Origin: Candidatus Acidiferrales bacterium
Lineage (GTDB): Bacteria; Bacteroidota; Ignavibacteria; Kryptoniales; JAKASW01
Direction: 5' to 3'
Assembly: GCA_035515795.1 (NCBI GenBank)
Contig: DATJAY010000025.1
Location: 1 to 64,000, forward strand
DNA length: 64,000 nucleotides
Position numbers and translations under genes: made by a program. Below the pieces are notes generated by a model. It had not been told where the DNA came from. It made no database searches and saw only the letters and a program-made list of their open reading frames with translations. Positions within the stretch are counted from its first letter, which is position 1; each line of letters opens with the position of its first letter. Shown here one piece after another: positions 57,167-61,003 of the stretch.

Positions 57167-58078
57167 TTAGAAGCCAAAGCTCATCGTTGCACTGACAAGC
57201 GCCGGGGAAATAAGTTGATAACCGTTGACGTGAGTCATGACAGGAATTCTCAGATCCGCATAGAGATTGAGCTGCCGGGCCAAGTTCACTTCGACGCCTG
57301 GTGAAACATAAATTCTTTCATATCCGGTGTTGGAAGGATCGGCGTTCTCACCGCTGTCCGTGCCACGGAACGAGGCGATAAGTTGGAGCATGGGAATAAT
57401 CCTGTATGTTTGCTGTAGGTTGTCGTAGTGTGCGCCTAGACTCAGATCGAAGCTATCTCCAGGTCGATAGCCTTCACGATAGTTAAACGCATGTTGCCAC
57501 AGTGCCTGTGCGTACCATCCCCAACCGGTTTCCTGCCCCATCTGATAACCGCCAAGGAGCAAGTCCGTGGTTCCGCTTCCTATTTGTGTGTCCCTATCCA
57601 TGAGCGATTCGCTGAATGGTCCCGTTGGGAGCTTCAATCCCAATTGAATCCCCGTCGACATGTCCTCGGATAATCCTGTATACATGCCCATTACGCGCAC
57701 ATCGCCTAATGCCATGTGATCAACGGACGCTAAGTCTCCTGCATCATCTATGGTCTTGAAATACCTGTTCCAGATCGGAGCCTCAATCATCACTCCCCAT
57801 TCCCTGTCTATCATGTCCTGAAAACCCAGCGTGTAGAAATTCGTGCGGATCTGCTTATCTCCGTTGGAATCCGGCGATGCAATCCCCCAATTATTCCAAT
57901 CTTCGTTTTGGTTCATAAAATTATAAAGCAGAGATAGCTTGTATCCTGGTGAAATCGGCATCATCCACCTTGCGCCCACCGAAAAAACGCTGCACCCGCA
58001 TGCACAGGCTAAGGTCGTAGTCGGCAAACACAGACCTGCAATTAACATCGATACAATAACTTTGTTCCAATTGTCCAT
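57167..58078 (-). CDS. Predicted outer-membrane protein with N-terminal CACGC motif
   Basis: 303 residues. The signal peptide is about 1-24. The mature N-terminus carries CACGCSVF, a tight cysteine cluster, and the last residues MSFGF end in Phe as barrel proteins do. Strands such as GIQLGLKLPTGPF and LNLYADLRIPVMT alternate as in a transporter-type barrel. It is divergent from nikR, so metal handling is a reasonable guess: the cysteines could bind a soft metal. No biochemical function is known. Confidence 0.75.
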   Translation of the reverse strand: MDNWNKVIVSMLIAGLCLPTTTLACACGCSVFSVGARWMMPISPGYKLSLLYNFMNQNEDWNNWGIASPDSNGDKQIRTNFYTLGFQDMIDREWGVMIEAPIWNRYFKTIDDAGDLASVDHMALGDVRVMGMYTGLSEDMSTGIQLGLKLPTGPFSESLMDRDTQIGSGTTDLLLGGYQMGQETGWGWYAQALWQHAFNYREGYRPGDSFDLSLGAHYDNLQQTYRIIPMLQLIASFRGTDSGENADPSNTGYERIYVSPGVEVNLARQLNLYADLRIPVMTHVNGYQLISPALVSATMSFGF

Positions 58079-58133
58079 AGAATATCTTGTTTATTGGTTT
58101 AACAAATTTTGCTGTCTCAAGTTCCGAATACTC

Positions 58134-58161
58134 TTGCACTCTCAAACGGTTTCTTTATAAT
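58134..58161 (+). promoter_or_regulatory. Candidate promoter of the nikR operon
   Basis: TTGCAC (58134-58139), a 16-base spacer and a perfect TATAAT (58156-58161), about 94 bases before the GTG start at 58255. I do not see the E. coli NikR operator (GTATGA-N16-TCATAC) around it. Confidence 0.5.
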
Positions 58162-58254
58162 CCGGCATTCACTGAGATGGCAGACTCCATGATTTCACTT
58201 TTGTACTGTTGATTATCTCGAAAGGGCGTGTTACTTTTATAAAAAAGGTGCCAC

Positions 58255-58677
58255 GTGAAGAACGGTCAATTAATTAGGTTCGGGGTCTCTATGGAGGACG
58301 AGCTTCTCGAAATGTTCGATAAGATAATCGACAGAAGAGGCTATACTAATCGGTCGGAAGCGATCCGCGATTTCGTCAGAGAGAAAATAGTCGAAGAAGG
58401 AATCCACGATGCGAATTCTCTCGCGTTTGGTGTCCTGTCGTTCGTTTATGATCATCACGTCAGGGAGCTCGAAGGGAAACTTACCGATTTCCAGCATGAG
58501 CACTTCAAGAGCATCGTTTCAACATCCCATATCCATATCGACCATGACAATTGTCTGGAAGTAATAATTTTGAAAGACAAAGCCGGAAAGATAAGTGAAA
58601 TAGCTGACAAGATGTTGAGCTATAAAGGGGTGAAGCACGGTAAGTTGAGCCTCACGCTTACGGGAAAAGAATTCTAA
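58255..58677 (+). CDS. nikR: Nickel-responsive transcriptional regulator NikR
   Basis: 140 residues, start GTG. An N-terminal ribbon-helix-helix (about 1-45, with NRSEAIRDFVREK) is followed by a C-terminal ACT-like metal domain. The four nickel ligands align with E. coli NikR at a constant offset of five: His81, His92, His94 and Cys100, within SHIHIDHDNC. It represses or activates metal-transport genes when nickel is bound. The TonB receptor 20 bases downstream is in the same transcript. Confidence 0.92.
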   Translation: MKNGQLIRFGVSMEDELLEMFDKIIDRRGYTNRSEAIRDFVREKIVEEGIHDANSLAFGVLSFVYDHHVRELEGKLTDFQHEHFKSIVSTSHIHIDHDNCLEVIILKDKAGKISEIADKMLSYKGVKHGKLSLTLTGKEF

Positions 58678-58697
58678 CATCAACAAAGGAAGAAATC

Positions 58698-60530
58698 ATG
58701 AATTATCTTAGGTACATTTTATTATCATTGATTGTTTGTATTTCATCTGCATATTCTCAACCGCAGAAATCCGATTCGACAAAGACGTACTACACCGAGC
58801 CGGTCGTGGTCACAGGCACGCAAGAAGGACTGAGCAGAAAATATGTGCCAGCATCTGTTTCTGTCGTTACCTCATCTGATCTGCAGTCGAGCGGTCAGAT
58901 ATCATTATTGGATGCACTGAGTGAAGAGGTACCGGGGCTGTATGTTCCTCAAAGAGGCGTCATCGGTTATGGAATAGAAAATCCTGCTGGGACGATAAGC
59001 ATCCGTGGCTTAAGTGGAAATCCGAACACACAGGTGCTTGTGATGATCGACGGAGTCCCGCAATTCATGGGGCTCTACGGACATCCACTTCCCGATTCCT
59101 ATCTTAGCCAGGACGCTGTGAGAGTCGAAGTGATTCGCGGACCTGCAAGCATGCTTTATGGGACAAACGCAATGGGCGGAGTGATCAATATTATTACAAA
59201 GAAAGCTGAACAAAACGGAGTTGAGTTCACAGGCGGAGCCAGTTATGGATCGTTCGATACGCAGGAGTATAACGGCGGGCTCGGTTATAACGACGGTAGA
59301 TTTAATATTCTCGTATCCGGTGACCATGACCAGACCGACGGAAGCCGATCATACTCAAGCTTCAACACCAATGACGGTTATCTGAATGCGGGATACAATG
59401 TCGATGAGAATTTTGATCTCCATGCGACAGGAAGTATTAACAAGTTCAAAACATACGATCCAGGACCGGAATCGGCGCCATTGATTGACAACTGGTTCGA
59501 CATTCTTCGAAGCTCGGGCAGCATTTCTCTCGATGATAAGTACGCCCAGACAGACGGATCTCTGAAATTGTTTTACAGCTACGGACATCATTCGATCTTT
59601 GGCGGCTTTCTTTCTGACGATAGAAATTTAGGCGGTGTAATATATCAGAACTTCAGGCCGTTTGAGGGTAACGTTATCACTGTCGGTGAGGATTTTCAGC
59701 ATTATGGTGGAGGTGCTTATGATGCGAGTACCGATTACGGCATTCATTACATCGATGAGTCTGGAATCTATGCGATGGTAGAGCAGTTCCTTATGGATCA
59801 GATCATGGTCGATGCCGGTGCGAGGTTCGTGCACAATATTACTTTCGGAAATCAGATCGTGCCGTCGGCAGGCATATCATGGGGCGCGACAAATTCCACG
59901 ACCTTGAAGGCATCCGTGTCGGAAGGCTACAGAAACCCAAGCATAGGTGAGCTCTATATCTTTTTCCCCTTGGAGAACCCTAATTTGAAGCCGGAAAAGA
60001 TGTGGGACTATGAAATCGGCTTGCTGCAAGGTGTGAGCGATCGCGTCGCCGTTGAGTTGACAGGATTCGTCGAAAAGGGAAGTAACCTTATCGAAGGAGG
60101 GTGGGCCACTTTCTCGCAATTTGTAAACTCCGGCAGCTTTACTCATAAGGGCATCGAATTCGGCGGGCACTGCGTACCAATTGATGGGCTGAAGATAAAT
60201 GCAAATTACAGCTTTGTCGAACCCGGGCAGGAGACCTATGAAACTCCCAAGCACAAGTTGTTTGTCGGGGTTAATTACGTTTACGATCGTGCTACTGCCA
60301 ATCTGACTTTCCAGCATATCGCAGTGCTCTATGGTGCCGACGGATCACAGGAAAAACTTCCTGACTATACATTGCTTGGCGCACGTGTCTCTTATCAGGT
60401 TGCAGAATTCGTGAACGTTTATGTCTCTGGAGAAAATCTCTTCAACAGCAGTTATCAGACAATTTACGATTACCCGATGCCGGGCAGAACGCTGTTTGCA
60501 GGATTGAATTTGAGTCTCGGAACGCGATAA
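58698..60530 (+). CDS. TonB-dependent receptor (probable metal or metallophore uptake)
   Basis: 610 residues. The signal peptide is about 1-21, then a TonB-box-like EPVVVTGTQ. The plug domain (about 45-160) has SIRGLSGNPNTQVLVMIDGVP and VEVIRGPASMLYGTNAMGGVINIITKK. A 22-strand barrel follows, ending GLNLSLGTR. It lies in one operon with nikR, so outer-membrane nickel uptake is inferred, as for NikR-controlled TonB receptors in Helicobacter. Vitamin B12 or siderophore uptake are alternatives. Confidence 0.88.
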   Translation: MNYLRYILLSLIVCISSAYSQPQKSDSTKTYYTEPVVVTGTQEGLSRKYVPASVSVVTSSDLQSSGQISLLDALSEEVPGLYVPQRGVIGYGIENPAGTISIRGLSGNPNTQVLVMIDGVPQFMGLYGHPLPDSYLSQDAVRVEVIRGPASMLYGTNAMGGVINIITKKAEQNGVEFTGGASYGSFDTQEYNGGLGYNDGRFNILVSGDHDQTDGSRSYSSFNTNDGYLNAGYNVDENFDLHATGSINKFKTYDPGPESAPLIDNWFDILRSSGSISLDDKYAQTDGSLKLFYSYGHHSIFGGFLSDDRNLGGVIYQNFRPFEGNVITVGEDFQHYGGGAYDASTDYGIHYIDESGIYAMVEQFLMDQIMVDAGARFVHNITFGNQIVPSAGISWGATNSTTLKASVSEGYRNPSIGELYIFFPLENPNLKPEKMWDYEIGLLQGVSDRVAVELTGFVEKGSNLIEGGWATFSQFVNSGSFTHKGIEFGGHCVPIDGLKINANYSFVEPGQETYETPKHKLFVGVNYVYDRATANLTFQHIAVLYGADGSQEKLPDYTLLGARVSYQVAEFVNVYVSGENLFNSSYQTIYDYPMPGRTLFAGLNLSLGTR

Positions 60531-60574
60531 AGGTTCTGGATTAAAATTATCAACAAAAATGAAAGAGTATAAAT

Positions 60575-61003
60575 ATGACAACTCGAAAAAAAGTTTCATC
60601 GATTCTTCTCGTGACAACTTTGCTGCTGTCGGTAGTTTTCATAACATCTTTTGACAGTTCTGAAAAAAAGACTCGGAAAAATTGCGTTCCATTCATTCTT
60701 CACCTCTCTCAAAATGAGACTGACAAGGTCACATCCATCCTCGACTCGACGAAGAGTGTTCAGATGAGATCCGGCTTTGTGACTCTTCAACCGGGAGAGA
60801 ATGTAGGGTCGCATAATACTGGACAGCATGAAGAACTCCTCGTTATTCTGGATGGCAGCGGCTACGCGGACGTAGAAGATCTTGGAAAGACAAATATCGA
60901 GAAGGGAATGGTTGTATATATTCCGCCGAACAATCAGCACAATGTTTATTGTGACGGTTCGTCTCCACTAAAGTATATTTACATCGTGGCCCCAACAAAG
61001 TAA
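60575..61003 (+). CDS. Exported cupin-domain protein
   Basis: 142 residues. An N-terminal hydrophobic segment (about 8-25) is a signal peptide or anchor. The cupin core has motif 1 GSHNTGQHEELLVILDG and motif 2 VVYIPPNNQHNVY, with His and Glu positions suited to bind a metal. It follows the receptor by 44 bases in the nikR operon, so a periplasmic metal-related role is possible; substrate unknown. Confidence 0.78.
   Translation: MTTRKKVSSILLVTTLLLSVVFITSFDSSEKKTRKNCVPFILHLSQNETDKVTSILDSTKSVQMRSGFVTLQPGENVGSHNTGQHEELLVILDGSGYADVEDLGKTNIEKGMVVYIPPNNQHNVYCDGSSPLKYIYIVAPTK

Follow-up and report, generated by a model that had tools for sequence, protein, structure and literature searches.

A gene for the nickel-responsive regulator NikR, flanked by a divergent outer-membrane barrel gene and by downstream genes for a TonB-dependent receptor and a cupin, raises the question of which of these neighbours, if any, handle nickel together. 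A reading of the sequence alone had proposed that the receptor, the cupin and the barrel protein jointly form an undescribed uptake system for nickel or another metal. The window analyzed here, 64,000 nucleotides in length, represents contig 25 of a genome of 4.08 Mb that is assembled into 39 contigs, with a completeness of 100. All four open reading frames were recovered where that reading had placed them (Table 1), and the interval indeed holds no nickel ABC transporter. Scans for promoters and terminators did no better than shuffled sequences. Judging from sequence and gene linkage, we consider it highly probable that nikR, the receptor gene and the cupin gene form a NikR-autoregulated nickel-scavenging operon and that the barrel is a separate channel of a copper-associated family; a NicO permease would pass the nickel on to a NiFe hydrogenase.

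Table 1. Features of the nikR locus, numbered from the first position of the window.
Feature	Position	Strand	Description
CACGC barrel gene	57167-58078	-	Divergent outer-membrane barrel, mature N-terminus CACGC; neighbour, probably outside the nickel system
NikR operator (predicted)	58228-58254	+	GTGTTAC-N13-GTGCCAC, immediately 5' of the nikR start codon
nikR	58255-58677	+	GTG start; nickel-responsive ribbon-helix-helix repressor; ligands H81, H92, H94, C100
TonB-dependent receptor gene	58698-60530	+	Putative cargo nickel or a nickel chelate
Cupin gene	60575-61003	+	Exported or membrane-anchored, single domain; putative periplasmic nickel or ligand binder

In profile searches, the regulator scored above the Pfam cut-offs for NikR_C and RHH_1 and matched NCBIfam PRK04460.1. 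Its four nickel ligands, described as intact in the sequence-only reading, align with H76, H87, H89 and C95 of E. coli NikR. The suggested search for an operator between the divergent genes (58079-58254) revealed a conserved predicted site of 27 bp that differs by two mismatches from the published delta-proteobacterial consensus, GTGTTAC-[N13/14]-GTAACAC (PMC545781). Each of the five other nikR loci in the genus has this palindrome at the corresponding position, and it recurs in many other families. Across the class, 26 of the 50 regions just upstream of nikR contain a site with three mismatches or fewer, as against an average of 0.23 in Markov controls. A genome-wide scan (at most one mismatch to a degenerate motif) found three sites, a lower count than its reversed control gave, and the evidence for the operator is thus its position and conservation rather than genomic rarity. 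The other two sites sit in coding sequence, and the scan added no further member to the regulon. Nor did the 11 kb surrounding the NicO gene or the 20 kb surrounding the hydrogenase genes contain any operator-like site (two mismatches or fewer). NikR very probably controls its own operon through the predicted operator.

On the other side of the intergenic region, the predicted fold and an AXA-type cleavage site agree with the description of the divergent gene product as a barrel-like protein with the mature N-terminus CACGC. In the structural model (mean pLDDT 78, N-terminal part poorly predicted), the fold resembles that of the COG4313 channel 4rl8 (Z 24.5) and that of FapF. We predict a COG4313/FapF-like barrel for this protein, which has no Pfam match. 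The CACGC motif directly follows the AXA-like signal-peptidase-I site and is kept in relatives. Processing as a lipoprotein was considered and rejected, as the residue at position -3 is mostly A, S, T or V across the relatives and there is no typical lipobox. Relatives occur in Bradyrhizobium, Hyphomicrobiales, Verrucomicrobia and other Proteobacteria, where their neighbours encode SCO1, CusF, PCuAC, CopC, DUF2946, TlpA-like thioredoxin and multicopper oxidase proteins; more distant relatives within the class adjoin MbnP together with a MauG-type cytochrome, an HMA protein or MerT. A search of a plasmid collection gave only weak relatives, named ‘transporter’. In front of several relatives stands a small CxxC ORF with a PP motif at its end. 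One exported-looking ORF of this kind (L093:7500-7970, minus strand) contains CEKKDxPGNTCQGCC, ends in GRDIDHPPE..L and precedes a CACGC gene in a CruR-like manner; L125 and L128 have comparable ORFs ahead of their CACGC genes, and similar leader-like ORFs in L184, L188 and L191 gave no Pfam match. CruR is a copper-responsive DUF2946 leader that precedes the genes of a copper operon (PMC9426467). The CACGC relatives resemble these CruR-led operons in their copper genes and CxxC leader ORFs, and the window protein resembles the COG4313 channels (4rl8, PMC4493636) in its predicted 12-stranded barrel. It differs from both in its CACGC mature N-terminus, its lack of a Pfam match, the leaderless state of its gene and its place beside nikR.

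It is improbable that the barrel is itself part of the nickel system, with its N-terminal thiols catching nickel at the outer membrane and a shared operator controlling its gene. Two of the three genomes that have both a close CACGC gene and nikR do carry them divergently adjacent (a gap of 0.18 kb in the window genome, G000, and of ~0.9 kb in G131), an arrangement that is rare under random placement. In Bradyrhizobium, one copy has a NicO permease gene nearby, and no CxxC leader ORF was found upstream of the window copy when the element present in relatives was looked for there. Against this, only two of the eight close copies in the class adjoin nikR, those of G006, G007, G009, G012 and G215 and a paralogue on contig 20 of the genome itself being located elsewhere. 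The co-occurrence of CACGC genes with nikR is not significant (p = 0.14). In the CACGC tree, the window copy groups with the unlinked copy of G012 and that of G131 with the copy of G215, meaning that linkage to nikR was not carried as one block. In G131, moreover, a CxxC leader ORF stands between the CACGC gene and nikR, and the neighbours of the relatives are copper genes. A search of 58079-58300 for a second operator, one directed at the CACGC gene, found none. The proposed membership of the CACGC protein in the nickel system is unproven and probably mistaken, and the protein is better seen as a copper-family neighbour. Of the uptake system first proposed, nikR, receptor and cupin are retained on the strength of the operator, the receptor clade and a related operon in G070, while the CACGC partner is dropped, its relatives lying in copper loci and most close copies lying away from nikR. 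The contig-20 paralogue (L022:2718-3701, minus strand), 66% identical to the window protein, is located away from recognised nickel genes.

Domain matches and the hydrophobic N-terminus of the cupin bore out the downstream pair as a TonB receptor and an exported cupin. Pfam matches show both a plug domain and a TonB-dependent barrel domain in the receptor, and a TonB-box-like PVVVTGTQE can be seen in its sequence by eye. The gene for NikR is present in 50 of the 294 genomes of the class, namely in 27 of 37 with a receptor homologue (E<=1e-30) and in 23 of the 257 others (Fisher p ~1e-16, not corrected for phylogeny); the ten genomes with a homologue but no nikR have mostly distant ones (29-33% identity). 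The same receptor family adjoins nikR at 26 of 51 nikR loci outside the window, sometimes with cbiQ-cbiO in between. The NikR-linked receptors form one clade (support 100/98) that excludes E. coli BtuB, CirA, FepA and FhuA as well as six other receptors of the same genome, the outside sequences sitting on long branches whose exact places are unsure. Within it, the window receptor has as its sister the receptor of G070 (100/100, 71-72% identity), a genome of another family. The copies from its own genus are less close to it, which points to transfer or to an ancient duplication. In G131, the receptor beside nikR is reduced to a fragment (L093:8891-9259, plus strand) that runs into a cupin-like end; N bases nearby make an assembly fault possible.

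The G070 operon (L084) has the order nikR, receptor, exported cupin, CbiM/PDGLE fusion, CbiQ and CbiO, and its tail is, as we take it from established knowledge of the families, a Nik(MN)QO nickel importer. This operon is the strongest single evidence that all three window genes would serve nickel. Elsewhere, hypD-hypE-nikR-receptor follow one another in G011, and NiFe hydrogenase genes stand beside the operon in G180 and G218. The refutation that the sequence-only reading had named, a receptor clustering with B12 or siderophore receptors, did not materialize in the tree. An alternative in which the cargo is cobalamin or a cobalt chelate, with NikR sensing cobalt or recruited to a B12 system, is unlikely. 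In its favour, the best curated model for the receptor is TIGR01779 (TonB-B12) and the best solved structures are BtuB, importers of cobalt and of nickel both use CbiQ and CbiO, and NCBIfam names the G070 S component for cobalt. Against it, the 157 bits to TIGR01779 fall far under the 599.7-bit cut-off that marks BtuB, the receptor groups outside BtuB/CirA/FepA, the NikR ligands are intact, hydrogenase or hyp genes adjoin the operon in several relatives, and the G070 S component, with its fused PDGLE domain, lies below every NCBIfam CbiM cut-off. We infer that the receptor carries nickel, probably as a chelate; this role and the control by NikR are supported by sequence and linkage.

The cupin consists of a single Cupin_2 domain behind its hydrophobic N-terminus. 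Residues H80, E86, E87 and H122 are invariant in an alignment with four other NikR-linked cupins, and the modelled fold resembles that of small metal cupins, TM1459 and DddK among them. Only five further loci combine the cupin with nikR, and in one of these it is a fragment; the exported cupin of the G070 nickel operon stands at the matching place. A function as a periplasmic nickel binder is plausible. A more specific proposal, for which we would give somewhat less than even chances, is that the exported cupin carries nickel or a nickel chelate through the periplasm and so links the NikR-controlled receptor to whichever importer the lineage has, NicO or nikMNQO.

Searches of the window genome found neither CbiM/NikM nor an ABC-3 permease. 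The latter, a ZnuB-like protein whose gene adjoins the receptor gene in G011 and G007, was thereby rejected as the importer. The genome does encode, elsewhere, a NicO/HoxN-type permease scoring above its NCBIfam subfamily cut-off. A NicO permease is found in all 13 genomes of the genus, with or without nikR, and its pairing with the window operon is for that reason something we infer. Also encoded elsewhere in the genome are a NiFe hydrogenase, whose large subunit carries the motifs RICGIC and CLSCSTH and is accompanied by a small subunit, and apparent diaphorase subunits and a maturation protease.

The combined results suggest a model of nickel scavenging at this locus. When nickel is scarce, apo-NikR would leave the predicted operator and the operon would be expressed. 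The TonB-dependent receptor would then move nickel, probably chelated, across the outer membrane, the exported cupin may bind the metal or its ligand in the periplasm, and the NicO permease would carry nickel into the cytoplasm to feed the NiFe hydrogenase. The role of the cupin and the hand-over to NicO are the presumptive steps of this pathway. The divergent CACGC barrel would be a separate outer-membrane channel of the copper-associated family, sharing at most the intergenic region.

FrpB4 and FecA3 of Helicobacter pylori, together with others, are NikR-regulated TonB-dependent nickel receptors (PMC11247825), and the earlier description of the system as undescribed holds only in part; the exported cupin is the part that still appears new, neither such a partner nor a cupin as nickel carrier having been found described in the literature searched. 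The window shares with the FrpB4/FecA3 type the NikR control, a TonB-dependent receptor, a putative nickel cargo and a separate inner-membrane importer. It differs in belonging to another bacterial class, in having the receptor gene directly after nikR and followed by that of an exported cupin, and in its GTGTTAC-type operator, the comparison with FrpB4 being one by description. With the NikR-controlled Nik(MN)QO operons of Geobacter and relatives (PMC545781), it shares the operator consensus, and its closest sister operon, that of G070, ends in nik(MN)QO. Unlike these operons, it includes a receptor and a cupin and lacks nikMNQO, in a genome without CbiM/NikM. Sequence and linkage make it most likely that nikR-receptor-cupin is an operon for nickel uptake, the form that the known NikR-controlled TonB nickel receptor takes in a new lineage. 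The passage of nickel over the outer membrane and periplasm is known in few bacteria, and the class-wide clade of nikR-linked receptors, the recurring cupin and the interchangeable importers offer testable candidates for both steps. The receptor clade would also help to separate nickel receptors from those for B12 and siderophores in unannotated genomes.

The class also shows other nikR arrangements. Family f7 combines nikR with an S-like protein and a cupin, and family f14 has the receptor together with an ECF-S-like protein and a cupin that lacks a signal peptide. In family f3, the order is nikR-cbiQ-cbiO-receptor-membrane protein-methyltransferase, and a genome search found no CbiM/NikM in the f3 genomes that carry nikR-cbiQ-cbiO-receptor. 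The short membrane protein (L066:12317-12928 and L068:12588-13163, both on the plus strand, and also L073, L083, L086 and L089) usually has the methyltransferase next to it, and its L066 copy weakly matches an ECF S component; it could be an S component for nickel that has no relation to NikM. At six nikR loci (L092:8721-9467, plus strand; L082, L094, L095, L096 and L101), the receptor is replaced as the next gene by one for an exported protein whose sequence, once past the signal peptide, starts with CFDTYLFL. Pfam gives no match for the L092 copy, and the protein is a further candidate for a nickel-related envelope protein.
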